Shown: positions 13,327-64,000 of the stretch, piece after piece
How the letters are laid out: each line of letters begins with the position of its first letter
Position numbering within the stretch: the first letter of the stretch is position 1
NCBI RefSeq assembly: GCF_910592395.1
Contig: NC_088311.1
Span: 5,458,501 to 5,522,500 of the forward strand
DNA: 64,000 nucleotides
Reading direction: 5' to 3'
DNA from: Lineus longissimus
Taxonomy: Eukaryota; Nemertea; Pilidiophora; Heteronemertea; Lineidae
Made by a program: the position numbers and the translations under genes
The notes under the pieces: model-generated
Told to the model about the DNA's origin: nothing
What the model saw: only the letters and a program-made list of their open reading frames with translations
Database searches by the model: none

Positions 13327-14555
<1,229 letters not shown>

Positions 14556-14608
14556 GGCGAGCTGTGTCTGTGATGTTTCTTTTATAGGGACTGCTTGCTA
14601 AGTTCCCT

Positions 14609-16904: not shown

Positions 16905-16970
16905 ATGGAGCCATTGCATTTTATTTTGGCTCTGGTTGCTGTCGTCTGCTTGTGGACGGAGACAGAACAG
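16905..16970 (+). other. Signal peptide of the giant protein
   Basis: The first 22 residues, MEPLHFILALVAVVCLWTETEQ, have a hydrophobic core FILALVAVVCLW followed by polar residues. This is a typical secretory signal with cleavage probably near residue 18-22. The start codon follows A-rich sequence with A at -3 and G at +4. Confidence 0.85.
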
Positions 16971-19900
16971 AATTTAATTCGATTTGAGGATGGATTTGAA
17001 TATCAATACACATACGACTCGAAGTCAACGATGGACCAAGTCGGACAGTTTCACATTCGAGGAAAGGTAAGCCAACATCCACCATGGCACAAGCTGTTTT
17101 CATTATACATCGCCTCTCGATATTTCAAACAACGGAGGAGTAACAAAAACCTGAGTCTCTGGATGGTCAACGCCTCCTTCTCCATTAATCGCATCTCATT
17201 TGTACAAGAGTGTCGTCCAACGCAGGTATCATGTTTTGTATGACGTTAATACAGTATCAAAAACCTGAATCTCGGGATGGGACCACAGTACAAACTACCT
17301 ATTGTGAAAATATATACAATTAGCTTTTTCTTTTGTTCTAGCTCGGTTACGTGCCGTTCGCAGAACACGAGGACGGACAAGAACTGTTAGTTCGTGTGCA
17401 CAGCTTCCACATCAAGAACAGAGATACGGAGGTCTCAGGTAATACTGCGGATGATTTTACCATAAAGTGAATGTGACCCCAAATTTAGACGGAAGTCCGT
17501 AAAAGGAGAGATTCTCCTGGGCTTCAACTGCTCCCCTTTGTCAAAGATCATCGAGCAATGCCGCGAGTCGAACAACTTTCCGCGCCTCCTTCTCCATACA
17601 CCAGACCTTCCGCTTGCTCATTTGCGTATCGCGTTCAGAAAAGAATGGTTCGGGCGTGTGTCAGGAAATGAGGGGTTAATGTTGTCTTCTTCGGCTCTTG
17701 TGAGAGACAGAGAAGCGGGACATGACTCCTGCTTTCCTCAGGATGTAGGATATGAGGATCATGGATAGGCTAATGTCGTGGCGACATTCTGGTGTTGCTT
17801 CACCTGGTCGGCTTCAGAGGGAATCAATTAACTTTGAAGAAATCAGATATTCTAGTATCTCTGCACAGCGGCCAAAAAAGGACGTGGACAGATACTTCTG
17901 AATCCGACTGTAGACCTATTTATATAGGCAATGCGCACCTGCTTCGTAAATAACACCAGAACCCGCAAGCTGTCTATGGTCGACAGTGACGCTGCTAGTT
18001 TGTGGAAAGAGTGGCATGGCACTACCACTTCCCAGTGACAAAGTGCGTTTTAATTTGTGTGGTTAACATTACGCGCCAACTACATGTATACTAGTATTAT
18101 AGAAATAACAGTCCATTAGGTTTTTCTTTCAGTCTATATCAATATATTAATGGCTTCTTGGCCACCAAGAAAACCTACTTGGGTACTTCGATCAATAAAC
18201 CCATACTCGGCGATCGTCCCTTATAATATAAATCGTAAAATCAACATTTACCCCTGGTTCGGTTCATAAAACAATAATTTTATATCACAGCACGATCGGT
18301 CTTATAAAACTAGTGACGTTATAATGTCATGTCAACATGTTACTTGTTCAGCTGAGGAAAAAAACTCAGCAACAAAATAATTTGATTCTTATATATGAGT
18401 GTCTCCTTTTGATTTCAGAGGGCTGGGATTTATCTGAGTGGTGAGTATATACCCTCTCGGCCCACTCCATGCAGACGCAGTTGACCGGAAGGAAATTTGG
18501 GTATGACGAACTAACTGCCTCTGCCAGCACTTGGATTGATACTCAAGGCCTGCCAACATGCCCGTATCTTTTCAGGAAAAGTCTAATGAAGGAACACAGT
18601 GACTCCTTATTTGGCCCGGTGTAAGGTTTTTGGTTGTTCCCCATTAGGTGTCTTTCGGCGTTTCAAACCGATGAGGGAAAACATGTCAAGAATATTACAC
18701 CGGGACCTTTCCTAACATGAACTGCTAGGCAAATGGAAAGAATATTGCCCGCTTAATTTTTGTAAAGTTGGCATTTGCGATGACAAGAATGAGTCTGCCT
18801 TACATCTCAAGAAGTAAAAGTTGATAATGTCCCAGAAATGTGTGTTCTATTGTCTTTGATTCATACACGAACTTATTTAAGTCCCTGATTTGTCCAATTT
18901 AACTAGGCGATCGAGTGCAAGATCGATGCGAAAGGAAACTATGTCCCGAGGAATTACACTCCGGACGCAGCAGACCGACCTCGTCCCTAATATAAGGAGA
19001 TCCAATTAGGATGACGCAATGGACTGCCCCGGGAGACTATGAGGAATGTGCCGGAAAAGAATCTCTGGAGTCTTGTATCCAGTCTTTGGTCTCAGTAGCC
19101 ATCATACACGCGTACTTTTATCCGTCACCAAGCATTATTAGGTAGGACACCTAGTGGCATTGATTACTATTACACCGAACGCGTTTCTTACAGGTTTTCC
19201 TTCGTGATAAACCCGCGTGGTGAGGTGCTGAGAACGTATCACCCCGAGGATGAGGATGCAGAAGTCCTCGCCATGAAGAAAGGATTCTCTTCTCTCATCT
19301 CTGGCAAGTTTTACGTGGAGCATGAGGTGAATACCACTCCTTCTTTGTGTCGCTACAGGCCACTGAATCAGGGCCCGGTTAGAAAAGGGGTTAAAAGGTT
19401 GGAAAATGTCCATGAAGGAGAAGGAATCCAGTCCCGTGCGAGACCTCTCTGGATTTATTGCTCCCTCTGCTGCCTGAACCACTTAAAAATGTTTTGAACC
19501 CTACTGAAACTTGAATCAGTGGCCTGTGGTGTCGCACGAGCTCCCTTTTACTTCAGACCCAACCAAATCCCCAATGAGTGAAAGTGCCACTGATACCATA
19601 TAGCTCTGTTATATAGATAGGAGATCCGAGTTGTTAGCGCCAAATTTCGAATTGCCTTTAAATTGAAAAATAATAGACCATTTTGTTGGTCATTTGGATG
19701 CAGCTACTGAGGCTTCGTTGATAATAATGAAAATCTCTCATATTCACTAAGGGTGTTGTGAAGCATGATGACGGCCAGTGGAGCTACCGAATCAAGGAAT
19801 ACGGCCAAGAAGGTAAGCCGAAGATCAGCCGTCAGCTCAGCCTTCTATTAGTCCTCTTTGATCCTCTGTGGGGTTAGGTTCAGGCGCGGACACTAGATTA

Positions 19901-22900
19901 CCCTCATCCTGGCACGAGTTGTTTTCAATATACTCCGCCGCTCGATGAAGGAGTAAAAAAGGCCTGCTCTCAGGATGGGTTATACTAGGGCACTTCACCT
20001 AGTGTTCCTAGGAAAGAGAGGGGCATAGGCTTGGGGTGGCATGCGGCTCGGCTCCGACACATCTCTAGCCCGGTGAATCTGTCTTCGGCAAATCGCACGG
20101 TCGTAAATTGTGGAAACTACAACAACGATCTTGGACCACGTGCTTGTCATATGACACATTAAAAAAATTTTTAAATTGGGGTATTTAAATCATCGATACC
20201 TCATAAAAATATCCTAGAAAACAATTGTTTTGATATCCAGCTCAGTTTTACGGGCGCTACTGTAACCAGATAACGTGCTATGAGTACCCTGTCCTAGACC
20301 TCTGCCTTTCCTCGTTATCAGTCGGCCGTAAGCGTGAAAAACAAAAAGATGATGTACGTGAAGAGTCATTCATGATTAGGCACCTTATTAATTGTGTTGT
20401 AGAACATTCATGCTAAACACAGGTGATTTTGCTATTTCGGAATGTTGAAATAAGTCAAAATCTTAGTGAGTTCTTTTTGTAAGCACCATGTGCACCCTGC
20501 CTGAATGAATGTTCTGCCTGGACTGCACTCAGTGCAGCAAACATTGGAAATGTGACAGGTAGGTAGTGGTTCAAACTTTCTTTCAAGGTTGACATAGTCT
20601 TTTGTTGTCCCAAACAACTAACAATGGTATCCCATGTAACAGATCATGCCTAGTTGGTAAGTGATTGGCCATTAACAATGAATGAATGACTTAATTGGGG
20701 AAAAAAATGTACAGGGTGTTAATCAATACAGTTGCAACTTTTTCCTGAAGAAATTGTACTGGGTGTTAATCAATACAGTTGCTAGTATTTTGCTAAAATA
20801 GTTTCTTACAATTTTGAAAAGTTTGAGCAAAAAATGGTCTCAATCGATACTAGCCATACATTCACAATGAACCATTTAAAGAGACATCCCATTTTTGACT
20901 TCCAGCAGATCGCCTGTCTCTTACACAATATCTGATCGAGATGGGGGGGGGGGGCAAATTTAGATGACAATCTTGAAATATTGGCCCATACACTGCTGGC
21001 CCCCCGACTGCTGAATGGGGAGGAGGGGGGGGGGGGCAGAAATCATCACTATCAAGTATTCATAAAGACATATCAATGAACTCTTTCAATTTATCCCATC
21101 TATCTATTATTAGAAGAAAGGAATAGTAAGTGGAATTGAACACCTTGAATGAACTCTTGTCTTGTTGTGAGTTATTAAGGGAAAATTTTACGGATTTGAC
21201 AATTTAAGAAATATGCTCTGATCATCAATTGAATTGATTTTCCAGGTCATCACAATGCCACCTACAAGGCGGAGAGGACCAAATCTGGCATCAAATTCAC
21301 CAAAACAAGAGAAGGCCATCCAGTTTACAATGCTAAGAGTGACTACCAAAAGGTAGGATGAGGATGGATCCATCCTCGCCGCTGGAAAGGCTACTAGAAG
21401 TGAATCTTCTATGATGCTGGTGGGGTGGAAGGATGTCCTATCTGTCAATATGTGTCTGACCCTTTTATCAACTTTTCCGTCCCCGTGCTCAAGTACTCCA
21501 CTTCAATCAGTGACCCTGACCTTGACCTGATAATTAGCAATGTCTCACTGCCAATTAGATATGCAGCTCTTTGTGTTAAAGTTCTCCTGCAACATGCAAT
21601 ATCTTGAGGGTGATTGGTAAAGTTTTTGTGGCCAAATTAGTTCAATAGTTTGAATAGACCGACAAAAACTTGTTATGGACAGTGACTCTGCTCAAGAAGA
21701 TAAGTGGTAAAGCATGATATACAACATCACTAGGGCAGAATCGGTCTATATTTCAAATAAATATTTTTTTCTCTAGGAAATGCACTACCATCCTCAACTC
21801 AAGATCATCCACCAGGTTTACACAAAGGAGAACTTTGCCTCCCCAAGAGAACCACCAAAAAAGTAAGGTTTTATTTCATCTACCACTGCGCCAGCACTTT
21901 GGATCTGTGATTCTACAACTTAAGTTGTGAATGAGAAATAATGATTTTAAGTCAATTTCTAAAGATCTAACTGTATCTGGTGTGAAATGCAATAGTTAAT
22001 CCTGAATGAAGGAAAAGAGGAACTTTGGAGATATGCTACTAGATGGAGTCAAGATCAGTTATTGACACTGGCCTGATTTTATTTTCCTGTATACTATATT
22101 GTCAAAAATATTCTTTCTGTTTTCAGTTTTGATGCTCGAGAAGGTCTCCGTCCAACTTTACAAGAAGACAACAGGCCACAGGATCAAGTTAGTGAGTACA
22201 TACACCCCAACCACAAGGCAATATCCATACTCCTTAAGGACTTTGAATTTGAACACCTACAGTCCAGACTTAGACTTCCAGATTTTGTATCTAGTTAGTT
22301 TATGAGCATGTGCATTGATAACCAAGATATCCAAGCTGTAACCAAGGTATATTTATTCATACACATGCTTAACCATGATTTGAAAAATAAATAGATAAAT
22401 TCAGTTGTCTTGGTAGTATTCAGTATTTTCTTCAAATTGATGCTGTGACTTTCACCTTATCGGTTTCCTTGAACTCTTAACTTGCTTGCTTCAGCTCTTC
22501 CTGACATGAGAGCCACAACCAATGGCCAGTTGACCTTTGTCACTAGAATCAGGGTGAAGCAGAAGATCAAGAGGCCTGCAGAAGAGGTCACTGAGGGCGA
22601 GACACATATAGGTCATGTAAGTACAGCACTGAGTTAACATGCTGTGCTAAACCTTTATGAAAATTTTCGAATTTGGCGATCCTAATGACCAAATTCACCC
22701 CTCTAACCCGACCAAAGGGCCTAATTGCCGCAATCGGTTGCGACCGCATCTCATTGATGTATCATTGACATTGTCTTCTGCCTTCAGGTTCCTAAGAAGG
22801 TTAAGAAGTTGGAATTCTCTGATGCATTGAGCTACGTGAAAGGCAACCTGACCTGTTTGAGGAAGGCTCCAGAAGGACCGAATGGTGAGTGTCCTTCAGA

Positions 22901-25293
22901 GTGATTTGATTTATTTGTTTGATTACTTGGATCCAATTGGCTACATTGCATTTCCAGGGCCCAGTTGCTGAATCAGTTGTAGCAGACAAACGCCAAACGT
23001 TAGCTTTTAGCTTTATCTGCTTCAGTTAATTTCATTTACAAGAGTAATATTAGGATTAAACTCCAACGTTACTCCTAACACCAAATGCGCCCTGGACCGT
23101 CGCAAGAATTGAATAGCTTTTTTATATCATTCATGAAATGATGTTAAATTTCCTTATCTTGATATTTTCTTACATCTTCCAGGGGGCCATGATTCCATGA
23201 GATGCTCCAATAACATTGTCAGTGTCCTAACTGCTGTTGAGCCTGCAGTCGTGACTAAACTTATTCAACAGTTCTTCAATATGTCTTCCAGACAGTAAGT
23301 GTGATAAAGCTTAACAGATGGGGCCAATTAGCCACATTTTTGGGGATTACTCTTTCATGACCCATCAAGTGCTACACTCTCACGGAGGAATATCGGCTGT
23401 TGTGATGAAACATTTGATAGGCCTGGTTTCATTTAGGGCAAACAAATAATTCCAATCTTTTCTTTTCCAGGAGAAGATTTCCGTGGAAGTACGGCCCTGA
23501 CCAGAAATCCTTGATTGATGTGCTGTGCAATTGGAAGGAACCACAGGGTGTTGACCTTCTGACGGACATGGTCTTTAGGTCACCTCTCCCAAACCCGGCT
23601 CATCTGGAGCATCTCTTTATCGCGATGGTGACCAGTGAGACCATGCCTACTAAGGTAGGGAGATTGTGGGTGGAATGCGGCCGCCGATTGGTCATAGTTG
23701 CAATCATGCGGCATGATGTCATGGCTCTATTGCAGGTCACAGGGACTAAAATTGCCCATTAGCATGACTCTTTATTATAACTAAACCTCAATGACAACTG
23801 ACTTCAAGATCTTTGATTTCTGAAAAAGTACTATTATCGGTCACAAGACTAATCAGAATCTTTCTGTTTCAGAAATTCTTGCAAACACTTGAAGAATACA
23901 TCCTGGATCCCAAGTCTTTCCCAATTCTAGCCCAGGGTCAGGATGTCTACCGCCATGCGCTTCTGTGCTTTGGCTCAATGGCTGGTTTCCTCAAGGACAA
24001 GGGTTTAATGAAGGAGAGCCAGGGTATGATTGCCAAGGTGGAGAAAATGCTTGGTCTCCATGGTAAGTTGTTTTATTTTGAGATTTCGTGGCATGACACT
24101 ATTGGAGTAGAATGACAAAATCTTTTGCTATAGTTTGCAAGCTATTGTGTTGGGGTGATATCAACAAACTACCCAATGCATAGATTATCTCAGGAATCAC
24201 TGACTTACCTTGCAAAACTTTTGTTTCATTGTTTTAGATCCATGGCTGTTCCGTGAGAAAAGATCCACCATGACTGAAGCCGATCAGTTAGACCATGAGA
24301 CCCATAAGGTCATACTACTGGAGTCACTTGGGAACGCTGCGCTCGAGAGTTCAGTGGACCATATTCTATCTCACATCAACACCACAAGCACCAAATGGAT
24401 TAAGAGGTCTGGGCTTCATGCGTTGAGGAACTATCACACTGACAAGGTATGTCCCGTTCCTCAGTTGTTTTTGATAACATGAGAGCTACATATAGATCAT
24501 AAATGATGCCGTATACCATTGGGGAAGGTTGCCACAACTTGGTGGAGTAAAAGCTATGAACATTTCCGGTCTTTCATCATTCAGTGTAAACATGTTCTTC
24601 AATTCTGGTCAATAAGAGAGGCCACTGTTCAGCTGTATTCAGCATCAAAGTTGTATTTGAAGTCAATAGGAAGAGTATACTTTTACATCTCTATTATGTA
24701 TTTGTTTGATTATGACCTCATTCCTTTTGGACAGGTTGCCCAGATCCTTTGGGCCACAGCTTTTGACGCAGAGGATGATGTTATTGGTCGTGAAGCCAGA
24801 GCTCTCTATCAGTTGCACCCCAAGGCGGACAAGGGAATGGTGCAAGCGATGAGGTGAGGAAGACGTTTTCATATTTTGAGATATGAGAGCTTATACAGCT
24901 GTAAAGCAACTGTTTATACAACTGTAAAACACTAAATCCCATTACACTGCCAATCTTGTGGTATTCAATATCTGCATTTCCTTGCAGCGCCCATGAATCC
25001 GGACCACTAATCAGAACCCTGCAGCAGCATCCAAGATATGCGAGGTCCACAGGAGCTTCAATGACCGTTGGCAAGAGCATTTGGGATGGCATTGCCTTCA
25101 AGATTAATGCCCCGGGTATCAACTGGATCAAACAGTTTGGCTCCCCTGACATCGGAATTGCATTTGGATTGATTTTAGCGAATGGACTGAATTTGACACT
25201 CAGTAAGTTGCAGTGTGGAAGCTGAAGTCTTGCTGATTCCAATGCTTTGTTTTCTTGTCAATCAAACTTCTGCGCAGTATCATTGACATATCT

Positions 25294-25324
<31 letters not shown>

Positions 25325-33416: not shown

Positions 33417-33451
<35 letters not shown>

Positions 33452-54400: not shown

Positions 54401-57400
54401 CTGTATTGAAGACAGTGTTTTCAGTCGGTGTGTCCTTGATAGAGAAGTTCTAGCTAAGTGTATCAACACTCTCCTGACCAGACAAATTTGTCTTCTCTTT
54501 ACAGGTGACACGAGTGTGAGTGACTGGCGTACGATGGGAGACAAGACCGATGGTTACATTGGTGGCCTGAGTTTAACTCTGGCTGATCCTGACCTGAAGA
54601 CGCCACAGTATTACATCAGTGTCAAGGCACTTAATGGAGCTGGGCTAGAGTGTGCATTGATGTCTGGGAGCCCCCTCCTCGTCGTTGATGAAGACAAGAT
54701 TGGTAACTATTGTATTTCATTTCACTGATATTGTGCTTGACCTCCACAAAGATATGAAAATGGTACCTACTGAGTACTGTAGATAGGTTCCCAACACACA
54801 TTTTTCGCACACTGCCAATTTGCAGATGATCTGTGATGTTCTCATTGTGAATGTATATTCCTGTGTACCTTTTATGCTAAGAGACCCCAAAGACTACACA
54901 CAAAGAACAGTCAACAGAAGAAAGCTATTGCATCTTAAGATTGGCAACTAATCCTGGCCATCAACAAAGGGTGTAAAGGTTAATCTTGATCTCATGTTAA
55001 AACAAATAGCCAAGTTATTTTCCTAATATCATCTCTTTTTTTTTCCCAGGGTTCGTTATTGATGGAGCAGGAGACACTGAACACTCAGAACAGGCCGCCA
55101 GCGGTGTTGACATCGATTACCAGGCTGACACTGCCACACTGACATGCCAGTGGGACGGTTTTGAGAGCACTCTCCACGGTATCAGGCACTACGAATGGGC
55201 GGTTGGATTGACTCCTCGTGCTGAAGATGTTAAACCATACATGGGTGCTGGTATTATTCCTAGGGAACACCTGGACCCAGTTGGCAAGGGTAAGTGTTCT
55301 TTGTTGGTTATGAAGTGACCAGCAGCAATAGATTTTTTGTGGTGTTAACCACGAAACTGTTGGTTACAGTAAGGTTAGTGGTCAAAAGTCCATAAGTGAC
55401 TGCACCATCTCTCAGAATGCTGAGTCTCCATTACTTTATGTGTATTGAAAGGAAGCGATATAGTCCATTGAATATCTTTGTGCTGTTTTACATTTTGTTG
55501 CATTTCCTTGACAGGTTTGCCTGGTGCTGGGAAGGCCAGCTCTCCTCTCGATCTCAAGCATGGCCAGACATACTACTGTACAATCAGGGCGTTCACTGGT
55601 GGTGAGAATTTGCTCGAGGCTGTGTCTGATGGCTTCATTGTGGACTTGACACCTCCAACCATTGAGTTAATTGAGTAAGTCTATGCCCTTTCTTAATTTT
55701 GACGTCAGCTTCCAACGTTTTGCTTTCCACCTCCACTCCACATCAACTGGTCTTGATTTCATCCCATAACATACGTGCTGTGAGAATGACTAAGGTATTA
55801 AACACCTCAACCCCAGATGATATTGGTAGAAAAGTTCTTGTCAATTGTGACAAACATGTTCTTTTCACAATCACTTATTGGACAATATATGATTTTTTCC
55901 AGCATTGGTCTTGACGACAATAGCACAGACCTCACCAATTCCTCAGTGCATTACCAAATCTCTGTCGACTCACTCTCTGGAGAATGGGAATATGAAGAAG
56001 ATGAATCAAAGATTGTCCAAGCCCTGTATGCCTACGGTACCTACCCTGGAAGTGATGACATCTACCCATGGACCAACGTTGGACCCATACCCAACTGGTT
56101 GGAGAACTCCGTGCCCATTGCCTTGGTGAAACCAGAGCACTCTGGCATGTCCAATATTCTGACTGTCAAGGCGTTTAATAACCTGGGTTATTCGACGCAG
56201 ATTCATTCTGGTTCTATTGTTGTTGACACAACGCCACCTGTTGAGGGAACTGTGATATGCCCAGAGACAATCCCTGTAAGTAACGGCTACCAAATTTGAC
56301 ATTCAACACCAGTGATAGAGTTTCCCCTCTTTATTCCTATGTTTGTACTATTTCAGTCCGCCACCCAGCTGGAGTGCACCTGGTCAGGATTCTATGATTC
56401 CGAGAGTCCCATCACAGCGTTCACTTTTGGACTTGGAACCCAGGAGCTTGTTGATGATGTCTACACTTTTGCTACAGTTGATGCTAGCAAGAGCAAGCAT
56501 GTTGCCAAATGTAAGTTACCTTTATGTTTTCAGGTTTGGCATTTCTTCATGTGAAATTTTGAACTTTGTATGAGATTTTACTTGAAGAAAATAAGGTTGG
56601 AACAGTCTATAACAATGATTAACAAAAGTTTGTTTCTGGCAGTTGTACCTGTTTCTCCAAAATCTTGTTTCTTATCTTCCAGCCTTCCTACAGCCACTGG
56701 TGCACCAAGGCATTTACTACGCATCTGTGACCGCTGTTAACTCCGTCGGTAAGGTCTCCACGGCGTTCTCCCAACCAATCACAATTGACAACACCCCGCC
56801 CGTCCATGGAACAATCGTAGAGCTTCCCGGTATCTACTACCTTGCTCTGGATAGCCCTGGTGCTGTGGATACGAGGAACACTGTCATCTGCAACACTACA
56901 AGTGGTCAGTACACTATTTTAATCAAAGAATTTCAACTCTTAGCGGGACAATATACGGGAACAAGAGGTCCGATTGGTGATTTAGAGGTGACAGATTTTG
57001 GCAGCAGAAAATTTGGTCTTGTCCTTTTGATAAAAAGAGTCCTACATGTAGTAATTGTGACTAGCCTGATGTACGGAGAGATAGTAGAGACATCTATCTA
57101 TCCTGCCTGTAGTCTTTCTTTCACCTTCGTGTAATGGCAACATCTACTACCAAGCGTGACACTCATAGTTTTTAATGTTGGTACTCGTGAGGGAAATGGT
57201 GTATTTTTGTGAAATTGTCAAACCCTAGTCCGAACAGGGTAAGATAGAGTTTGACAAGAGAAAGTGGTGCTATGACTTGATGCAATCTTTTTTAGGATGT
57301 AGTGCTATTGATGCCACTTGCCAGGAGTCACTCACCCAGATAGCCGTTGTCTGGACAGCTTTCTCTGATCCAGAGTCCCAGATTACCAGGTAAGATCAAC

Positions 57401-60400
57401 CCTTTTGCACCTTTTGATTTGGGAGTATTCCTGGCTTGAATCGACAAGTTCAGCGTGTACAAATGTCACAAAGTCCTCTTACTGTAGCCCTAAGAGGAGT
57501 AGGTATGATGGTTCCTAAAGCTATCTGAAGTAAAGTAAGCTACCACTCAACATCATTGAACCTCATCATTCAAAGTTTCTTCACTAGCAGTTTCCCTTTC
57601 CAGGTACCAGTTGGCCGTCGGATCTACTCCAGGTGGTGGACAGCTGCTACAGTTCTTTGATGTTGAACTTGATGACCCGAATGTGTTGAATTACGTCATC
57701 AGCGGTCTGGACATGATTGGGCTAAGACAGGCAAGTAATAATGGGAAACCCTCAACTTGGATCCTCTAGGAGAGTGCTGCGTTTCATAGAAAAAAGCAAC
57801 AAATGATCAGACGTCGTCAATCATGGCATTCGACACCTGGCTGGACATTGCTTGGCTAGATGTTAATGCTCTTGCTGATAGAGTGAGTCCCAAAATCTTC
57901 ATCACTGGCATCCTACATGTGTTTTTTCTGGTAATTTGCTGTAAATGCAACTGTACCTTTTCAGGTGTTTGTTACCGTGAAAGGTTTCAATGAAGCTGGC
58001 CTTTCGAGTGTTGCTATCTCAAATGGTGTCTTCCTTGCTTACACAACTCAAGGTCTCGCACCTCTCTACGTCTACGATCTGTTCGACACCAAGGATGAGA
58101 CTGGTGACATGTAAGTTTCTTCAGAATGACATTTTACACCACACAAGTTACATGACTCATTGGGTTTACCTTATTTCGAATCAAGGTCAGACCGAGGTAT
58201 CACTTTGGTTTCAAGGAATTGATATTCTGGGACAGCTCACTGGACCCACTTGTCCCTTACTGAAATAAGACTGATTTAGTCCTAAAACTGAAACACCTTG
58301 TACATGTTGCATATGTTGTGACATATTCGTCATATACTTGTTCTTGAATATAGACACGTGACTGTCCTTTTTTCAGGGATTACCAAGTGAAATATGACAC
58401 CCTGAGTGGCCGGTGGGACTTCAGTGGTGACCCGTGCCCAATGGCGTCATATTCCTGGTCCATTGAACGATTGGATGGAACTGTTGCACAAGACCCAATT
58501 GACCTTGGAAGTAAGTATGGAAACCTTTTGGATTACGCTAACCAAATTGGAACACAAATGTAGTGTCATTCATAACATGCTTAGAAGAGGAATTGCCGAG
58601 AAGAAATGGATCACTGGTTTATTAACAATCAGATGATACCAAAAGTCTTTCAAAGATTGATCTCCAAATCGGTATGAATTCCTTAAACCATACCAGTTCA
58701 GATGATCATATGATCACACTTCTTATCACGTAAATTGCTCTCTTTTCCAGCCCAAACATTTGGTGACAATGATAACATGATGATGTCTGACTACGAGACA
58801 TACTTCATTTTGGTGAATGCAACCAATGTACTCGGGTTCAGTCAGATCATGCGTTCAGATGGTATTGCCATCCAGAAGGATCCGCTCTACCCTGGCACCG
58901 TCAATGATGGCGACGTGACTGGATTCGATCTCCTCTACTGGCCGTTTACTGACAAGATCACTGCAAACTGGGATCACTTTGGAGTTCAGAATACCGCCTC
59001 CTTCCAGCCTCAAGTTCTCTCTGGTACGTTAAACCTTGTTTCAAGTGAATCTTTTGTCACAAAAAGTGGAGAATTGTATAAAGCTATTGAAGTAACCATG
59101 CATTGGAAAGCCCCCTACAGGGAATATTTGATGGTACCAAAAGCATAGTGTTTAGTTCTGGTTTAAATTGACCATGTTTTTTTGGTATTTTTCGTAAGAT
59201 TGCGTGAGTACTAAATTTTAAAGGTTTATGTTTCTATAATATTTGCAGGAAATCCTGGTCAAGCTGAAGAAGAGGAACAAGTTGACAACAAGAACCAGGG
59301 AGTCGATTATTACGAAATCGCCATTGGAACAGACCGAAGGTATCCAAAGTCACGTGACAATGTTGTACCATACACGAACGTCGGACGCAACTTGTCACAC
59401 ACATTCTTTGATCTTGACCTCGTTCCCTTGACCGCTTTGTACTATGTGACCATCCGTGCGCACAGCTTCTCACAGGCTGTGAGTGAGGTGACTTCCAACG
59501 GTTTCTTCGCTGGATACAATGATGCTGTACTTGGTAAGTGAAACAGAATATTCTGTTCATAGTTGCAACAGAGAAAACTTCTGTTTTTTGCAAATTTGCA
59601 AAGATTGTTTTTACGATATCCCACCTTGTGGTATTCTCGTATGACAATGCCAGTGCACACATACACTGATTTACCATGGGACTTAACAACACAAGTATGC
59701 ATGCATGTCACATGACGGCTGGACAGAAAATCACCGAACTGTTTATCAGAATCTGGAAATATGATCACATTCTCAAATTTTGGCTCCACTTTTTTGTAGC
59801 GCAACCGATCCAAATGCGAGACTACTGGAACAATGCAAGCTATCTGACCATGCACTGGGACCCATTTACTGCCTCGCCCGCGATCATGCACTACCATGTG
59901 GGTCTTTCAAACCATTCAATGGCCGACAGCTACAACTGCAAGGAACTTGTAAGTGACCTTAGTTTTCCATTTTTCCTGAAATCTGCTTGCAGTTGAACAA
60001 GACCAGACCAGTATACACTGATGCTGTATACCAGGCTTGTGTTTTACGGTAATTCAGCCGATATGATTGTATTTCTTCTCGATTTAAGATTGAAGGTGGT
60101 GATGTGACTACTGACCAGAAGGCAGAACTCTTCAACGTGGTGGCACTGACGAACTTGGGAACAAACAGTATGCTGGAGATCTTCAACATGTCGCTTGTTC
60201 ACAACTCTTCCTACTATGTTATGGTGATAGGTAAGTTGAAACACATTCTATTTACAGTTTAACTTCATGCCTCTTTTTGTGACCAACAACGTGTTTATAA
60301 TCAGTTCTTTTTAAAATCATTTCTCATCTGCAAGTAAAACTGGTCAGCGCTGTGTTTCATATTAATGGCTTGTTGCTGCGATTACCGATTTTTGTTGCAG

Positions 60401-63400
60401 GCACCTCCAATGACCACGACAAACGATTTGTGTTGTGTGCAATCATTATTACAGGTTGCAGTGCTTTAGATTGATCGTTTTTTGGGGCGCTTAGGATGAG
60501 AACGATTGGAAGAACGAGGACTGAGTAATTTTGCCATTCTTGACATGGTTTTCAATATTGTTGTAGGTGTGAATGAAGCAGGCAAGTGTAACTCGAGTAG
60601 TTTTCCCTTCACTATTGATCTGACCAATGTTGAGGAGGGAAGACTAAGAAACGGACCTTACTATGATCAGAATGCAACATACACAGATTCCCTCTCAGAG
60701 ATCACGCTGATCTGGGAAGGCTACCACGATCCGACGTCCGGTATCAAGACTTTTGAATTGTCACTGTGGACATATGAGTCGTGCAGTTTGGAACATTCGG
60801 ACAATGCCTCTCTAGTTGTCGATTGGATCACTCTCGACGGTACCTATACTGGGTACACTTTCACAGAGCTGACCCTTGTGGTAAGTTTGGAAATAAAGTA
60901 TGTGGCAGCATTGTCTTAGGACCATAAATGCGTCAGAAGGCCTGAGATCAGCACTCCGATTATTGTTAGCCTTGTGACCAAATGAAGGAGGTGGAGAAGA
61001 GAAACACATGTCTTCATCATTTGTCGACAACTGACGATTCAGCATGTTTCGACTAACGAAGCAGATAAATGTATGTATGTCAGAATTATACAATTGAATT
61101 CTGATTTCTTCCCTTTTAGCTGAATAAGCCATATTTCGTGATCATGCGTACGACCAATTGGGCATACAGTCATATCAATACCACCACAGTTCCAATCCTC
61201 GTTGATACGTCAGTACCGACTGCTGGAAATGTTATCGATGGTCTATCATATCTTCATGACGCAAGATGGAATGGCTTCAATGACTTCTTGGAAGGTAAAT
61301 ATGATATTCTGTGTCGATGTCGATGGTATAAGTCTACGTGATTCAACCGTTGCTAGCTCCTGATTGGGATGTTATGGATTGGAATCCTGCCTTGTTACTT
61401 TATTCTTCAGATGTTAGAAATCAAACGTGAAGTGATGAGCTTTGTACATTTAGCAGCTTCTTGACATTTCCAGGTAAAAACCTGAGGAACTACAGCACAC
61501 TTGGACACGTCATGCAAGTGATGATGTTAATGCATCTGACGGTTTTCATTTCCTTTCAGTGAGCTTTCTACATTGGCAGGATGGCACCATCACAGCATGT
61601 GCAGACACGCCAATCGATGTCGTGCAGGATCCCAACTGGTCCAAACTGGCAATCCAGGGGCTACTAATGCCATCTGGTGCAGAGTGGAACATTGTCTATA
61701 TTGCGGACGAGGTGCAGCCGAGGCTTGATGGGAACGGTATTCAAGTGCGCATGATCCGTGATACCAAGGCCAGTAGGATGTACTCCGGGGCGTATAGTAT
61801 CAATGCCGACTTTGCCAGTGGTGGAAAATATCAAGTATGTATTGCATTTTGCTTTCAAAGATTCGCTGTTCGTGAAATGATTAAACCATTTTGTTGGCGC
61901 ATTTCTTTCTCATTGTTGTTTTGAGAGTGAAGAGTAGCTTTAGAAATTAAGTTTACGACTCTTGAATTCTACAACTTTGGCTTTGGAAAGCTGTTGAATC
62001 ACCCTTGATGAGCAGGATTCCCCTCCGTTCTTTGGACCCTCTTGAGTTGGTAGAGTCCAAGATCAACTTGAGACATACTTGAAATAGAAAGACTTGAAAA
62101 TAGATCATACATGTACAGCATGGTTTCATTTTGGAATACTAAGACACTTCATTTCTTAATGTTTCAGGTTGATATCCAGGCAGGCAATGGAACTGGTCGT
62201 GCTATTACCAGCCTGCTTTTCTGGGATGGTCCAGCATCCATGATTGGGGAATACCTCGTACCAATGGAAGAAGACTGGGCTGCGGAGACTTGCAGATGCT
62301 GCTATTATGATCCAGTGCCTGTGGTAAGTTAAAGTAATTTAGATAATCAGGTGAATGTTCATGCTGATGCTGATTACACACAAAAACCTTGCTTCATAGC
62401 AGATGCCGCAGTTACCAGGACACCCTAACTTTTAACGAAACACGTTTTCATTTCAATTTTACCTCTGTTATCAGGACACCTAGCCAGCAACTTAATCAGA
62501 AAAGTGTCCTTAGTCACAAGGACCTTTTGTATTTTCATGATAACTTTATGTTTTCCTCCAGGACTGTATATGTAACTGTACAGAGTATATGGCAGTACTA
62601 GACTTCTACAACATCACCTTGCCCCCAGAGCCAACAACCACCATGACACCTAATGCAGCGCCAGTGCCTTGGGCTATACAGCAAGTGGCACTGCCAGGAG
62701 ATAATGTTGATCATATCATTAGCAACATGCCACAGGACGGACAGCCATCTTGTGGCTTCCAGTTGCATCCAGGTAGGGCTGCTCCCGATACAAAAGGAAA
62801 ATCTCAATTCTGGTCGTGTAAATAAGGGACTATTGATAAACTTCCTCAAAATGGAATGCTCAGAAGGAGAGACAAAGCAACCAGGAGTGACTGTGTTCTA
62901 AGCCTTTGAAAGGTGCAGCCAGTACCCTAGGATTTAACCTAATAGGCAGTGTTCCTGCTATGAAACCAAGTACCAAGACTGGTCATCAAATGAACAGTTA
63001 TGTCTTTGTTGTGTTGCCAATTTGATTGCACATGCCAGCACTGGTCCTCTCCCCAACCTCGTCAATTCATGATCTCCCCTTCATTACAGGAACGCCAAGC
63101 TACATCAACCTGTGGTGTCGATTCGCCAATGACACTTATGAAATCGTAGAAACGCGACACCAGGTTGAGTTCGACTTGACAGTATGGAACACATATGAGA
63201 TTGAATTCTATGAATTCTATGATCAGTCAACTATTGTAAGTATGAACAATGTTTGTACACCTTAGTCAACATACTGCCGTTTAAATAGTGTTGTTAGCAA
63301 AGCTTGGTTCCTGACCAATTTTGCTTTCTGATATAGCCTGCAGTGGAACCCCGGTAACACGACCACTCATGGGGCTGGCGATTCTTGTTTGTCATAGCGG

Positions 63401-63793
63401 GGTGGTCGCCGACCGGGGTTGCACTGTATTGTTTTATCCTGATATCTACATGTATATCTTTCAATACCATCTTTCCAGCCAACCAGATGTGTTCATGTTA
63501 AGCTTGCCACTAGCGATGAACACCTCGCATCGCTGTGCGGCATCCCTCAACTCTCCAACTCAACACGTATGATCTTCCACGTTTTCAACTCTAACAACTA
63601 CGTCCCTCCATTGACGGACACAATGAATCCATGGAGTGTGACATCATACTTGAGAGAAGTGCGTCTGCCACCAAGTAGCGATCAGCTGTGTCGCTATGGT
63701 AACCCGTTCATGGGGGGGACTAACCCTATCATCAGTTACGAAGCCGCTGTTGGCTATGAAGCTGGAACTGAGGATGTTGTTGCATTTACTCCG
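16905..63793 (+). CDS. Giant secreted large-lipid-transfer-protein chimera (3' end outside window)
   Basis: 107 exons were chained by hand from 16905 to 63793. Every junction keeps phase, giving 18,963 nt (6,321 residues) with no stop reached. Domain order by approximate residue: signal peptide 1-20; vitellogenin-N/LLTP module 21-709; helix-rich and linker region 710-1360; SAP-like motif near 1375-1400; 11 Cys-repeat modules 1408-3530; RRRRRR site near 3533-3538; beta-rich region 3545-4090; PAN/apple-like 4091-4162; about 14 FN3-like units 4163-5770; Cys-rich tail 5770-6321+. The N-terminal module predicts extracellular lipid binding. The later repeats suggest adhesive or scaffold roles in egg, hemolymph or cuticle; that part is inference. 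Known LLTPs (vitellogenin, apoB, apolipophorin, MTP) lack this Cys-repeat and FN3 architecture as far as I know. No von Willebrand D domain is seen. It could be two adjacent genes, but continuous phase through the middle argues against that. Confidence 0.88.
20708..20790. repeat. 48-bp tandem duplication in intron 5
   Basis: TGTACAGGGTGTTAATCAAT and TGTACTGGGTGTTAATCAAT, each followed by ACAGTTGC, start 48 bp apart. Poly(G) runs lie nearby at about 20942-20953 and 21021-21036 in the same intron. Confidence 0.75.
22788..24853 (+). other. LLTP alpha-helical horseshoe, exons 10-15
   Basis: Exons are 22788-22884, 23183-23294, 23471-23654, 23873-24062, 24238-24446 and 24735-24853 (residues about 286-588). 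Paired amphipathic helices recur, for example GVDLLTDMVFRSPLPNPAHL and LEHLFIAMVTSETMPTK. The clearest family mark is LLESLGNAALESSVDHILSH followed by WIKRSGLHALRNY. This matches the LLTP hallmark around K-A-L-G-N-A followed by R-x-x-A-x-x-A-L-R. In the family this horseshoe wraps the lipid cavity and contacts the beta barrel. Confidence 0.8.
25294..25326. repeat. (ATC)n microsatellite
   Basis: About 11 perfect ATC triplets lie in the intron between exons 16 and 17. A similar array lies at 33411-33459. Confidence 0.9.
25378..25545 (+). repeat. Dispersed repeat, GAGAGGTGTCC family, copy 2
   Basis: TACAGTGGGACCTCCCTGAA begins the element. GACACCTCTGTGAGCAGA, TGGATACCTCTCCC and AGAGGTTATACTG follow. 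It is intronic, between exons 16 and 17. Confidence 0.55.
25971..27875 (+). other. Helix-rich segment of the giant protein, exons 18-23
   Basis: Exons are 25971-26147, 26379-26546, 26724-26866, 27044-27114, 27370-27533 and 27710-27875. The text is rich in heptad-like hydrophobic spacing (EFSPEKLQQKYNQFMDIADR, NLLEQLMDTLEAIPDK, MRGQVMDRIQGILTHMLNVF). It suggests long helices or helical bundles of unknown class. N-glycosylation sequons occur (NATV, NGTT). I do not recognise a domain family. Confidence 0.6.
28500..28560 (+). repeat. Dispersed repeat, GAGAGGTGTCC family, fragment copy 3
   Basis: CTGTACTGTGAAGCCTCCAT followed by GACACCTCTGTC matches the head of the family. It lies in the intron after exon 24 and is truncated. 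Confidence 0.45.
29715..29900 (+). mobile_element. tRNA-derived SINE in intron 27
   Basis: TAGCCTAGTGGATAAGAC matches a pol III A box. About 45 nt later GAGTTTGATCCCTG matches a B box. A non-tRNA tail follows (CTCTCTGACAGCGAAGG). The tRNA-like part cannot fold into a full tRNA, which fits a SINE. Confidence 0.6.
30150..30751 (+). other. Helical exon 29 and SAP-like motif in exon 30
   Basis: Exons are 30150-30337 and 30613-30751. Exon 30 encodes LTVDELKAALTKRGLSSMGS followed by KGVLIKRF. This matches the helix-extended loop-helix SAP consensus (L-x-V-x-E-L-K-x-x-L-x-x-R-G-L ... G-x-K-x-x-L-I-x-R-F). SAP motifs normally bind DNA in nuclear proteins; here it sits in a secreted protein just before the first Cys module, so a different use is likely. 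Confidence 0.6.
31051..32837 (+). repeat. Cys-repeat module R1 (exons 31-35)
   Basis: Exons are 31051-31323, 31532-31598, 31723-31889, 32279-32406 and 32681-32837. The head is CTYDSLCLGTTCC, then 20 residues to FDPCEF. It is followed by strands ending AVFPIPIC and WPV, then a helical linker (EVAEALKEEGRVVEAAQKQA, GFGLPE, PC). The extra exon 35 adds KTLAQLETYYNAKGFSAEF, a degenerate SAP-like stretch not found in later modules. Confidence 0.8.
33109..34230 (+). repeat. Cys-repeat module R2, degenerate (exons 36-38)
   Basis: Exons are 33109-33403, 33703-33860 and 34069-34230. Module layout, the YPWGENQML strand, the phase-2 intron before YTIN and the helical linker (EEAFDAILTQYRLGPYR) are kept. 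The double cysteine is lost: GCNQIDLCIDLN replaces C-x5-C-x4-CC. A long insertion precedes it. Confidence 0.75.
33411..33459. repeat. (ATC)n microsatellite
   Basis: About 15 ATC triplets with one interruption lie just inside the intron after exon 36, 8 nt from its donor. Confidence 0.9.
34445..35488 (+). repeat. Cys-repeat module R3 (exons 39-40)
   Basis: Exons are 34445-34757 and 35106-35488. The head is CGLSSTCHGVQCC. The spacing to the next Cys is stretched to 26 residues (FHECNY), followed by YDWGRTIEG. The strand, linker and final LVYLLQNQPC are in one exon. The open frame continues past the exon-39 donor into the intron, but the GGAG/GTATG donor and the phase fit a normal splice. Confidence 0.78.
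35765..36886 (+). repeat. Cys-repeat module R4 (exons 41-44)
   Basis: Exons are 35765-35986, 36104-36146 (43 nt), 36326-36489 and 36722-36886. The head is CYMSSMCSDIDCC and DTCAYEL follows after 21 residues. YDW/G is split by a phase-1 intron. The linker is TDEIEEAILRHLGLATTL. This module keeps both conserved intron positions of the family. Confidence 0.82.
37049..38312 (+). repeat. Cys-repeat module R5 (exons 45-47)
   Basis: Exons are 37049-37304, 37636-37787 and 38178-38312. The head is CRMDNRCYGFECC, then exactly 20 residues to VDPCDYKL, then FNRTLYTFPWG. The second half ends NAQFPIPQC. The linker is AWEAVFRSLGLYSLMDEPC. It is a textbook copy of the module. Confidence 0.85.
38509..39757 (+). 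repeat. Cys-repeat module R6 (exons 48-51)
   Basis: Exons are 38509-38770, 38987-39141, 39379-39470 and 39703-39757. The head is CHYDELCLGLHCC, 20 residues to FNPCTYEL, then MAWGQTF. The second half ends QIPTPTC. The linker is divided over two exons and ends FDMSTC. Confidence 0.82.
39908..40912 (+). repeat. Cys-repeat module R7 (exons 52-54)
   Basis: Exons are 39908-40132, 40336-40536 and 40781-40912. The head is CQVSDGCLKVECC, with 22 residues to LFPCDYSI. The phase-1 intron splits ENF/G. The second half ends LLELPTC and TWPA. The linker is AAEQILGEGADVLLSLLNV with a final AEC. Confidence 0.82.
41044..42063 (+). repeat. Cys-repeat module R8 (exons 55-56 and start of 57)
   Basis: Exons are 41044-41256, 41452-41664 and 41930 to about 42063. 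The head is CSHVETCTGLECC, 20 residues to IDPCDYSI, then FNDTLIGYTYG split by the phase-1 intron. The second half ends PVYMPAC. The linker (AVNRLGVRPEVLTGVPC) runs into R9 within exon 57, so the intron that normally separates modules is missing here. Confidence 0.82.
42064..43188 (+). repeat. Cys-repeat module R9 (exons 57-60, parts)
   Basis: Exons are 42064-42295 (rest of exon 57), 42518-42715, 42856-42932 and 43144 to about 43188. The head is CSAGYNKCTSIHCC (one extra residue between the first cysteines), 20 residues to LDPCTFVL, then FGWG split by the phase-1 intron. The second half ends VQFPIPSC and RWPS. The linker is ALIMNRMGIQAEELFADEC. Confidence 0.82.
43189..43814 (+). repeat. Cys-repeat module R10 (rest of exon 60, exon 61)
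   Basis: Exons are 43189-43290 and 43412-43814. The head is CGISDKCTGVECC, 20 residues to IDPCDYIL, then FNVSLLGYNWG. Strands (SFVIPYC, SWPTH) and linker (LLSNVLGVTNDFLMPLEC) are fused in one 403-nt exon. Internal introns present in R4, R7, R8 and R9 have therefore been lost. Confidence 0.83.
44000..44686 (+). repeat. Cys-repeat module R11, last copy (exons 62-63)
   Basis: Exons are 44000-44209 and 44485-44686. The head is CYVQSNCMGVLCC, 20 residues to IFHCQNQF. The WG strand is lost and the second half ends GTMFSKPTC. Instead of a helical linker the module ends in ARRRRR, leading to the polybasic site. Confidence 0.8.
44670..45034 (+). other. Polybasic (furin-type) cleavage site and 21-nt microexon
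   Basis: Codons from 44670 give five Arg plus a split sixth (AG at 44685-44686, completed by G at 45014). RRRRRR satisfies the R-x-K/R-R furin consensus. Exon 64 (45014-45034, 21 nt) encodes AANLQRL and is phase 2 on both sides. Skipping it keeps the frame and still restores the split Arg. Cleavage here would separate the lipid/Cys-repeat half from the PAN/FN3 half, as LLTP precursors such as apolipophorin are cut by furin-like enzymes. Confidence 0.65.
45317..48554 (+). other. Ala/Gly-rich and beta-rich region after the cleavage site (exons 65-72)
   Basis: Exons are 45317-45440, 45623-45779, 45961-46199, 46365-46527, 46677-46902, 47256-47475, 47764-47970 and 48254-48554. An Ala-rich start (SSAATANNVRAAAGSG) is followed by long alternating strands (YYGLNITVSAKVVKMTAGVL, LGIGALIYGKLRLEGDICEV, LEIVPVRLRLFGMVTIEVDL). 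These could form an amphipathic sheet able to bind lipid. Exons 71-72 (ISVVASDDRSEVRLFLDVG, PLYFTVSAENDGGGSAKV) resemble an FN3-like sandwich. No family is confidently recognised. Confidence 0.6.
46940..47055 (+). mobile_element. tRNA-derived SINE fragment in intron 69
   Basis: GGGTTCAATCCCAGGCC is a near-perfect pol III B box with T-loop context. It is followed by a tail (CATGACCTTGGAAAAGTCAC) like those of other SINEs. The A box is degraded. Confidence 0.55.
48689..48903 (+). other. PAN/apple-like domain (exon 73)
   Basis: One 215-nt exon encodes FEDCARECLTKKPWHCMAFN followed by YDMDYDLQTCQLLS. The spacing C-x3-C-x7-C-x-A-F-N-Y then C-x-L-L matches the PAN/apple fold, used in protein and carbohydrate binding. 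Its donor (GAG/GTCAGA) is weak, but the next exon joins in phase 0. Confidence 0.7.
50071..50097. repeat. Perfect 12-bp inverted repeat
   Basis: CCCTTATCATAT, AAT, ATATGATAAGGG form a perfect hairpin with a 3-nt loop in the intron before exon 76. It may be the terminus of a small decayed element. No coding role is seen. Confidence 0.8.
51165..51312 (-). mobile_element. tRNA-derived SINE, minus orientation, in intron 78
   Basis: On the minus strand GCTGCCATGGTCTGGTGGC carries an A-box-like TGGTCTGGTGG. CTGGTTTAAACCCCACAG is a B box about 35 nt later. A tail with ATGACTTTGCTATGCCCATG follows. A long anticodon-side insertion rules out a working tRNA. Confidence 0.6.
51583..51722 (+). mobile_element. 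tRNA-derived SINE in intron 79
   Basis: GAGTTTGATACCTGAC is a B-box-like core. The tail TCAAGTCGCTTAACTTTTAC, then CCTTTGAATGAGATGTAA, resembles a common invertebrate SINE end. The A box is unclear. Confidence 0.45.
52122..53889 (+). repeat. FN3-like units 3-5 (exons 81-85)
   Basis: Exons are 52122-52368, 52558-52729, 53006-53249, 53362-53479 and 53717-53889. Unit 3: NWYGFYDAESGISSYMVAVG and YYSTVWAYNSGHKQLNTSA. Unit 4: LVDLTAPLTGEIVDG and WRDYSDPESGIMEYSLQVEV. Unit 5: IVDRTPPVVTFLGDGS and NWEFFDEESGLDHSRTM, closing with VIIDDTAPH. The fold assignment is by motif layout only. Confidence 0.75.
53905..53995 (+). repeat. Dispersed repeat, GAGAGGTGTCC family, copy 4
   Basis: TACAGTAGAACCTCTCTATT, then AAAGACACCC, ATAGAGAGGTGTCCTGATTG and GAGAGGTCAAATTG. 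This is the best preserved copy; internal complementarity of TCTCTAT and ATAGAGA could form a stem. It lies in the intron before exon 86. Confidence 0.6.
54072..56275 (+). repeat. FN3-like units 6-8 (exons 86-90)
   Basis: Exons are 54072-54231, 54505-54702, 55050-55289, 55515-55674 and 55903-56275. Unit 6: WLGIDGESGVSEYFVAVGLS and YYISVKALNGAGLECALMSG. Unit 7: CQWDGFESTLHGIRHYEWAV, GQTYYCTIRAF and IVDLTPPTIEL. Unit 8 is one 373-nt exon (WTNVGPIPNW, NILTVKAFNNLGYSTQ, VVDTTPPVEG). Confidence 0.75.
54297..54455 (+). repeat. Dispersed repeat, GAGAGGTGTCC family, copy 5
   Basis: TATAGTAGAACTCCCCCTCA, then TACACCTC, AGACACCTCTGTATTGAAGA and TGTGTCCTTGATAGAGAAGT. It lies in the intron before exon 87, only 300 bp from copy 4. 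Confidence 0.55.
56357..59023 (+). repeat. FN3-like units 9-11 (exons 91-97)
   Basis: Exons are 56357-56510, 56683-56904, 57296-57389, 57604-57730, 57965-58110, 58377-58510 and 58751-59023. Unit 9: WSGFYDSESPITAFTFGLGT, YYASVTAVNSVGKVST and IDNTPPVHG. Unit 10: WTAFSDPESQITRYQLAVGS and VFVTVKGFNEAGLSSVAI. Unit 11: SYSWSIERLDG, YFILVNATNVLGFSQ and PLYPGTVNDGD. The intron after exon 94 has a GC donor. Confidence 0.75.
59249..61294 (+). repeat. FN3-like units 12-14 (exons 98-102)
   Basis: Exons are 59249-59533, 59800-59948, 60089-60230, 60567-60880 and 61120-61294. Unit 12: GVDYYEIAIGTDRRYP and LYYVTIRAHSFSQAVSEVT. Unit 13: MHWDPFTASPAIMHYHVGLS and SYYVMVIGVNEAGKCNSSS. Unit 14: IWEGYHDPTSGIKTFELSLW, YFVIMRTTNWAYSHI and LVDTSVPTAG. 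The last units have drifted most from the consensus. Many N-glycosylation sequons are present. Confidence 0.72.
61560..63793 (+). other. Cys-rich C-terminal region, incomplete (exons 103-107)
   Basis: Exons are 61560-61834, 62168-62323, 62562-62772, 63090-63235 and 63479-63793; the last has a GTTAGT donor, so more exons follow outside the window. Exon 104-105 forms a dense cysteine cluster, CRCCYYDPVPVDCICNC, after strands such as VDIQAGNGTGRAITSLLFWD. A Pro/Thr linker (LPPEPTTTMTPNAAPVP) follows, then a strand-rich part (YINLWCRFANDTYEIVETR, QVEFDLTVWNTYEIEFYEF) resembling a concanavalin-like sheet. No stop codon is seen. Confidence 0.65.
63345..63430 (+). repeat. Dispersed repeat, related element, copy 6
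   Basis: CAGTGGAACCCCGGTAACAC, then a central part and GGGGTGGTCGCCGACCGGGG and TTGCACTGTATT. It has the CAGTGGAACC head like the other copies but a different core. It lies in the intron before exon 107. Confidence 0.4.
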
Positions 63794-64000
63794 GTTAGTA
63801 GCCCTATATGAAATCTGCTTGTCCTGATGTTTTACACTGTTGGCTAAGTCTGTCAACATCAAAATGAAAAGGACCGTGACACCTGGTAAATATGTCCGCC
63901 GGCTGCCCCTCTGGTGGCTTCCTCAGTATTGTCTGGAGTCAATTTCATATTATCTTCTGAAGTCTATGTTGTTGACTAGTGTCACTGGACACCTCAACTG

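Follow-up and report, generated by a model that had tools for sequence, protein, structure and literature searches.

To our knowledge, the described large lipid transfer proteins (LLTPs; MTP, apoB, vitellogenin and apolipophorin) are all soluble or lipoprotein-bound carriers. They carry lipid mostly in open beta sheets that follow the N-terminal domain. Among adhesion receptors built from FN3, cadherin and EGF domains, we know of none with an LLTP N terminus, a SAP domain or 11 cysteine (Cys) modules. Here we analyzed a stretch of 64,000 nucleotides from the nemertean Lineus longissimus (NCBI RefSeq assembly GCF_910592395.1, contig NC_088311.1, positions 5,458,501 to 5,522,500 of the forward strand), referred to below as the window, in which a first-pass annotation made from the letters had proposed a giant lipid-transfer-protein chimera. 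The gene found there would encode a giant type I single-pass membrane protein with an LLTP N-terminal domain at its tip and a head whose ligand would most probably be lipid or lipoprotein, an explanation that we hold with somewhat less than even confidence.

Sequence and paralogs together support the following domain order for the predicted protein: LLTP N-terminal domain, helical region, M23/LECT2-like domain, SAP domain, 11 Cys modules, polybasic site, beta domain, PAN domain, about 15 FN3 units, an unnamed domain, about 2 further FN3 units, two polybasic sites, a cadherin-like part, two EGF-like repeats, a transmembrane (TM) helix and a tail. The parts that lie within the window are as follows (window coordinates).

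16905..16970, plus strand: start codon and signal-peptide-like N terminus (MEPLHFILALVAVVCLWTETEQ), from the exon predictor and the edited model, with the leader judged by eye
16971..24827, plus strand: LLTP N-terminal region, Vitellogenin_N-like (beta sheet, then helical part), from hhalign of a four-copy profile with a five-LLTP profile and from Pfam in three of three paralogs
25070..28123, plus strand: beta stretch specific to the family and a long region that is probably helical, 27 to 30% identical to the paralogs, with no credible Pfam match
28397..29223, plus strand: M23/LECT2-like domain, from Pfam Peptidase_M23, BLASTP to LECT2 and paralog alignment
30646..30747, plus strand: SAP domain (Pfam SAP, E value 1.6e-8, 34.4 bits against a cut-off of 23.9)
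31051..44669, plus strand: eleven Cys-rich modules, M1 to M11, with a Cys-terminated linker after each of M1 to M10, from alignments and our own hidden Markov model (HMM)
44664..44686, plus strand: polybasic furin-like site CARRRRRR, its last codon finished by the next exon, directly after M11, polybasic at the same place in four copies
45317..47475, plus strand: linker and second, probably beta-rich domain of no known family, from the predictor, with no Pfam match and conserved in the paralogs
48697..48903, plus strand: PAN/Apple domain (Pfam PAN_1, E value 1.8e-5, 24.9 bits against a cut-off of 21.4)
49152..61227, plus strand: about 15 FN3-like units, from our own profile (A2), which matches FN3 structures
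61294..63793, plus strand: unnamed C-terminal domain of the window part, its last exon ending at the donor at 63793, with no Pfam match; its probe matches family loci only

A giant gene that runs beyond the window

We chained exons by dynamic programming with a predictor that was self-trained on the window. The predictor permits GT-AG introns only, and uniform GT-AG borders are thus given by construction and are no evidence. A chain from 16905 to 63793 with more than 6,300 residues and at least 107 exons had been claimed, and our plus-strand chain from 16905 to the donor at 63793 bears this out with 108 exons and 6,330 amino acids (edited model, window part). Over the window region the chain scored 1,458, whereas the minus strand reached 32 and six dinucleotide shuffles 9.5 to 14.0; training on the plus chain somewhat favors that chain in this control, and the gap is far larger than that. 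Run unedited on the window alone from 16700, the predictor picked the ATG at 16905 and returned 110 exons and 6,392 amino acids, with a stop at 63811. The edits removed exons 18576-18620 and 20484-20558 and shortened exon 19194, because the two exons and the long form of the third are absent from the paralog models. A first run with a weak intron penalty gave 257 exons, many of them tiny, and was discarded. The signal peptide noted in the first-pass annotation is present as a signal-peptide-like start, by eye.

The gene extends beyond the window, and position 63793, which had been taken as its end, is not the end. When the next 10 kb were added, the predictor switched to the donor at 63793 and continued through 21 further exons to a stop at 73227 (window coordinates), and the open frames 3′ of the last window exon are conserved among three paralogs. 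The joined chain over 56 kb scored 1,704, and the edited full model has 129 exons, 7,557 amino acids and a median intron of 238.5 bases. The unedited full protein (7,614 amino acids) has a calculated mass of 842 kDa, an isoelectric point (pI) of 4.76 and 92 N-glycosylation sequons, 2 of them in the tail. A very large gene could be read well from raw sequence, yet it ended outside the window.

A family of at least seven loci

We searched the genome assembly (391 Mb in 30 contigs) with probes from different parts of the gene; these searches score the best candidates only, and the seven loci found are a lower bound. A probe from the helical LLTP part (exons 15-16) gave 10 matches at at least seven loci, and each of these seven also has one of the 7 matches of a probe from the last window exon, on the same strand and 39 to 116 kb downstream of the N-terminal match. 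The best six matches of an EGF-TM probe adjoin six of the seven loci; the score then falls from 79.4 to 52.9 bits at the seventh match, which belongs to the many ordinary EGF repeats. The same probe also matched a 1,517-amino-acid open frame with many EGF repeats at C5:21904601-21908989. Besides the window gene, the loci are the following.

C4:21.86-21.92 Mb: P1, read through
C12:16.52-16.58 Mb: P2, read through
C15:9.73-9.81 Mb: P3, read through
C15:6.69 Mb: P4, tail examined (cadherin-like, EGF-like, TM and tail exons)
C12:5.7-5.9 Mb and C13:15.9-16.1 Mb: two more loci, known from three probes alone

The window protein aligns in order along P1, P2 and P3 at 34 to 37% identity, apart from cross-matches among repeats, and each of the three has 17 or 18 FN3 matches. 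A hydrophobic leader opens the P1 model too; the P2 and P3 models reach no credible start codon, and the 3′ ends of the P1 and P3 models are unsettled. P1 (C4:21860001-21932000) seems to be without cadherin, EGF and TM exons, its model ending in a charged, coiled-coil-like stretch, and it may be a secreted version. After its LLTP region, the P1 model contains a run of near-identical GLDLDIGVFSLTIEN repeats that is not in the other copies and is either an exon-internal duplication or a model artefact.

An LLTP-type N terminus

By sequence comparison, the N terminus is an LLTP N-terminal domain, strongly diverged, an assignment decided by the profile of the four copies and by Vitellogenin_N matches in P1 to P3. 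The four-copy profile aligned with a profile of five LLTPs (MTP, apoB, lipovitellin and two vitellogenins) in hhalign at 94%, with an E value of 9.2e-8 and 400 columns in order; among 120 column-shuffled controls the maximum was 23.9, against 69.5 for the actual alignment. With the window copy left out, the paralog profile still matched the LLTP profile (E value = 1.8e-7). Furthermore, all three paralogs exceeded the 24-bit cut-off of Pfam Vitellogenin_N (PF01347), with 25.0 bits for P1, 40.7 for P2 and 42.9 for P3; the paralog N termini used here and in the profiles are predicted and lightly edited, unaligned stretches that resemble retained introns having been cut from P1 and P3, and P2 being used without its start. 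The human apoB control matched the family at 4.6e-117. The window copy is tied to the LLTP family only through its paralogs, because it has no Vitellogenin_N match of its own but matches the paralog profile with an E value of 2.1e-78. The LLTP helical hallmark of the first-pass annotation is present, with three of three paralogs passing Vitellogenin_N and the window copy alone failing.

Tests of the window copy by itself gave weak or mixed results. Exons 18576-18620 and 20484-20558 had been excluded early for the LLTP tests with LLTP sequences in view, and the unedited model was run too; it matched the paralog profile at an E value of 4e-69 but, alone, did not match the LLTP profile (E value = 0.065). 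A phmmer search of the PDB with the window copy gave no LLTP match, and hhalign with two LLTPs was not significant. An HMM of four LLTPs scored the copy above all 300 shuffles, and an HMM of five ranked it 6 of 1,001, with five shuffles ahead. In hhalign against four LLTPs, the sheet part was reached by 0 of 350 shuffles and the helical part by 15 of 350; against five LLTPs, the sheet part was reached by 2 of 200. The four-copy profile, searched against the PDB, found no LLTP. HEAT_2 was the sole weak match of the window copy in this region, and LLTP-like motifs around KKG and LGNA are present.

The C-terminal half and the predicted membrane anchor

Beyond the window, the chain adds FN3 units (about 2), two furin-like sites, cadherin-like domains, two EGF-like repeats, one TM helix and a tail of about 310 amino acids. 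The cadherin-like domains are above the Pfam cut-off (Big_9, 8.6e-8, 33.4 bits versus 23.6; Cadherin_5, 2e-7, 31.2 bits versus 26.5). The two polybasic sites precede the cadherin-like part in the window gene; P2 and P3 have basic runs at the two corresponding positions, and P4 has one at the second. Several EGF families match in the window gene, P2, P3 and P4, with P2 at 22.0 bits against a cut-off of 21.5. A hydropathy scan found one strong TM segment near the C terminus, after the EGF-like pair (2.65; next best, 1.97 at residue 736), and a juxtamembrane KAYY motif is present in the tail in the window gene, P2 and P4. The product looks like a type I single-pass membrane protein, not a soluble one. 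The large extracellular adhesive protein proposed earlier is an incomplete picture of the product, which has a predicted TM helix and tail beyond the window and does not look like a free extracellular protein.

Upstream of these parts, the PAN-like domain claimed before is above the PAN_1 cut-off, and the count of about 14 FN3-like units becomes about 15 in the window. Our own FN3 profile, which matches the window units by construction, gave 17 matches in the extended protein, of which 15 lie wholly in the window part (the first of them weak, E value = 0.02) and one begins in the last window exon. Against the PDB, a profile of 11 units matched 53 sequences at an E value of 10 or less, the best being midline-2 (8.2e-7), contactin-1 (3.9e-6) and Dscam (9.5e-6); we take the first 19 to be FN3-bearing proteins or FN3-derived monobodies, and the lower rows are mixed. 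Searched singly against Pfam fn3, 2 of the 11 units matched at an E value of 10 or less (best, 0.018).

Eleven Cys modules and the domains before them

All 11 Cys-repeat modules that had been claimed were found. The 11 copies share 14 to 35% mutual identity, and a C-x5-C-x4-CC...DPC pattern is common to most of them. Our HMM of the module finds 11 units in the window gene, by construction, and also 11 in each of P1, P2 and P3, each unit of the paralogs at an E value of 4e-19 or better. Searches with the module gave no credible family in Pfam (three chance-level rows over 11 members, best 0.018) and no credible relative among PDB sequences (best 0.11). The structure predicted for the exon-63 part of the module, modeled from 21 window stretches, has a mean pLDDT (predicted local distance difference test score) of 81.4 and consists mostly of beta strands; structure searches with this model gave no clear fold match, an absence that proves nothing. 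The gene adds an undescribed Cys-rich module.

Between the LLTP region and these modules lies a domain at 28.4 to 29.2 kb that the earlier list of domains, sound as far as it went, had missed. It matches Pfam Peptidase_M23 with an E value of 3.1e-6 and 27.7 bits, one bit under the cut-off of 28.7, and it matches human LECT2 in BLASTP (E value = 1e-5, a single comparison). By eye, the window copy has Asp in place of the first metal-ligand His, P1 has Asn and P3 has Gly, with P2 unreadable there; the HxH motif is present in the window copy, P2 and P3 and not in the P1 model. A complete metal site (HxxxD plus HxH) was not found. Because the first metal-ligand His is replaced, the domain is probably not a peptidase, and no peptidase activity is expected of it. 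The SAP-like motif occurs in four of four copies. Homology between the beta stretch after the LLTP region and the beta-rich domain after the Cys modules was considered and is unsupported.

Alternative explanations

According to the membrane-receptor explanation, secretory targeting would bring the protein to the cell surface, furin-type proteases would cut it at the conserved polybasic sites, and the resulting chains would remain associated. The FN3, cadherin and EGF part would then serve as a stalk, the LLTP and Cys-module head would bind the ligand, and the tail would pass a signal or drive uptake; any meaning of KAYY is a guess. This depends on both halves belonging to one gene, and the first-pass annotation, which had claimed a single gene, had placed a possible break between exons 63 and 73. 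If there were two neighboring genes, the first would end at the TAG at 44688-44690 after the Arg run and the second would start at or near the ATG at 45324. Judged from the window by itself, the join is score-neutral (1,457.9 joined versus 779.5 plus 677.7 or 678.9 split), because a stop codon directly follows the Arg run if the donor is unused. The paralogs disfavor the split. After the last Cys of module 11, the sequence reads CARRRRRR in the window gene, CSRRRRAAL in P1, CSKRKRRSL in P2 and CPTRKRRSV in P3, and the exon in all three paralog models runs on beyond this site to join the following exons; the suspected break therefore looks like a conserved furin-like cleavage site within one protein. 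Moreover, the N- and C-terminal probes fall on one strand at all seven of the at least seven loci, the join is kept in four of four copies, and a separate right half would, by eye, be without a signal peptide. A single gene is most likely on these comparisons, and we regard two genes as very improbable.

Several results weigh against lipid capture by a membrane receptor. The window copy, searched alone against Vitellogenin_N, gave no match at an E value of 10 or less and passes no LLTP family cut-off. For the lipid-binding protein inferred in the first-pass annotation, the comparisons support the LLTP-type start but do not show the usual lipid cavity: the window protein has no match to the open beta-sheet family Vit_open_b-sht (PF09172; apoB control, 7.9e-61), and the beta stretch after the LLTP region has no match to the LLTP profile, because of which lipid binding may have been lost. 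The best-known role of SAP domains is to bind nucleic acids inside cells, for which a secreted position offers no explanation. The EGF-like repeats reach no Pfam cut-off in the window gene, P3 or P4, and no EGF-TM exon was found for P1 in the 14 kb searched or among the genome matches listed. The same membrane protein could instead use its LLTP region, a sheet with HEAT-like helices, as a structural or adhesive scaffold without lipid binding, in a receptor for adhesion or recognition, whether homophilic or heterophilic. The unmatched open beta-sheet domain fits this, as do the window copy being the one of four missed by Vitellogenin_N, with HEAT_2 its only weak match there, and the M23 domain too having lost a metal ligand, which suggests folds reused as scaffolds; against it, all seven loci contain the LLTP helical part, and the long, probably helical, conserved stretch after the LLTP part could hold lipid. 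We consider the scaffold a serious possibility, about one chance in three, and rank it second as a function to lipid or lipoprotein capture by the head, which would be the likeliest at just under even. A mainly secreted or matrix product, in which a furin-type cut at the first polybasic site frees the LLTP and Cys-module half as a soluble or egg-coat or matrix lipoprotein-like factor, appears unlikely. The conserved polybasic site between the halves agrees with it, as does P1, in which no EGF-TM exon was found, and one report describes vitellogenins and an apoB-like protein, which may or may not be related to the one here, in amphioxus (B. belcheri) egg coats (PMC3543715); however, the TM exon is kept at six of the seven loci, and conservation extends to the whole domain order, as if the two halves worked jointly.

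Neighboring genes and repeats

The window also contains the following features.

1991-2222: tandem repeat with an 83-base unit and 2.9 copies
3450-4787, minus strand: RPS7 (Ribosomal protein S7e) gene, two exons matching Pfam Ribosomal_S7e (2.1e-28 and 1.1e-22)
6556-8670, plus strand: RNase H1 gene, N-terminal domain at 3.5e-8 and RNase_H at 9.7e-6
14358-14597, minus strand: exon of an elongin C-like gene, Skp1_POZ at 5e-7, about 2.3 kb from the start codon of the giant gene

Human RPS7 and RNASEH1 are also close together, and their proximity here is a possible old microsynteny.

Comparison with known systems

As the first-pass annotation had supposed, we found no described protein of this architecture in the openly accessible literature, which is only part of the record; the family may sit in databases as uncharacterised proteins. 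One lead comes from sea urchin apical-tuft cilia, in which a report lists a 615-kDa "vitellogenin (apolipoprotein B)," SPU_028683, and gives SPU_028684, the next number and also named vitellogenin, as 203 kDa (PMC3812683). Like the product of the gene here, SPU_028683 is a very large LLTP-annotated protein; compared by description, its listed pI of 8.47 (PMC3812683) is a poor fit to the 4.76 calculated here.

The LLTP superfamily (MTP large subunit, apoB, vitellogenin/lipovitellin and apolipophorin) shares with this gene the signal-peptide-like start and the sheet followed by a helical part, and apoLp-II/I is also cleaved at a basic site. In the gene here, however, Pfam finds neither the open beta-sheet family nor VWD nor any other LLTP domain, and in place of the LLTP C-terminal domains it has the M23-like and SAP domains, Cys modules, PAN, FN3, cadherin-like and EGF-like domains, TM helix and tail. 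With LECT2 and M23 peptidase domains, the M23-like domain has the APF.G and HxH motifs in common; it differs in the lost first metal-ligand His and in being embedded in a giant protein. The FN3/cadherin/EGF adhesion receptors (such as contactins, Dscam and neogenin) have the same FN3 stalk, cadherin-like domains, EGF-like pair, single TM helix and tail. Tentatively, and short of an even chance, we propose an undescribed class of animal surface receptors of about 840 kDa, in which an LLTP tip is set on a furin-processed FN3/cadherin/EGF receptor as a tethered lipid or lipoprotein sensor, with a family of seven loci and a fixed number of Cys modules. If this is true, a membrane-anchored LLTP family would link the evolution of lipid carriers to cell adhesion or signaling, and the conserved cleavage site, the fixed repeat number and the seven loci make the family a defined target for tests.
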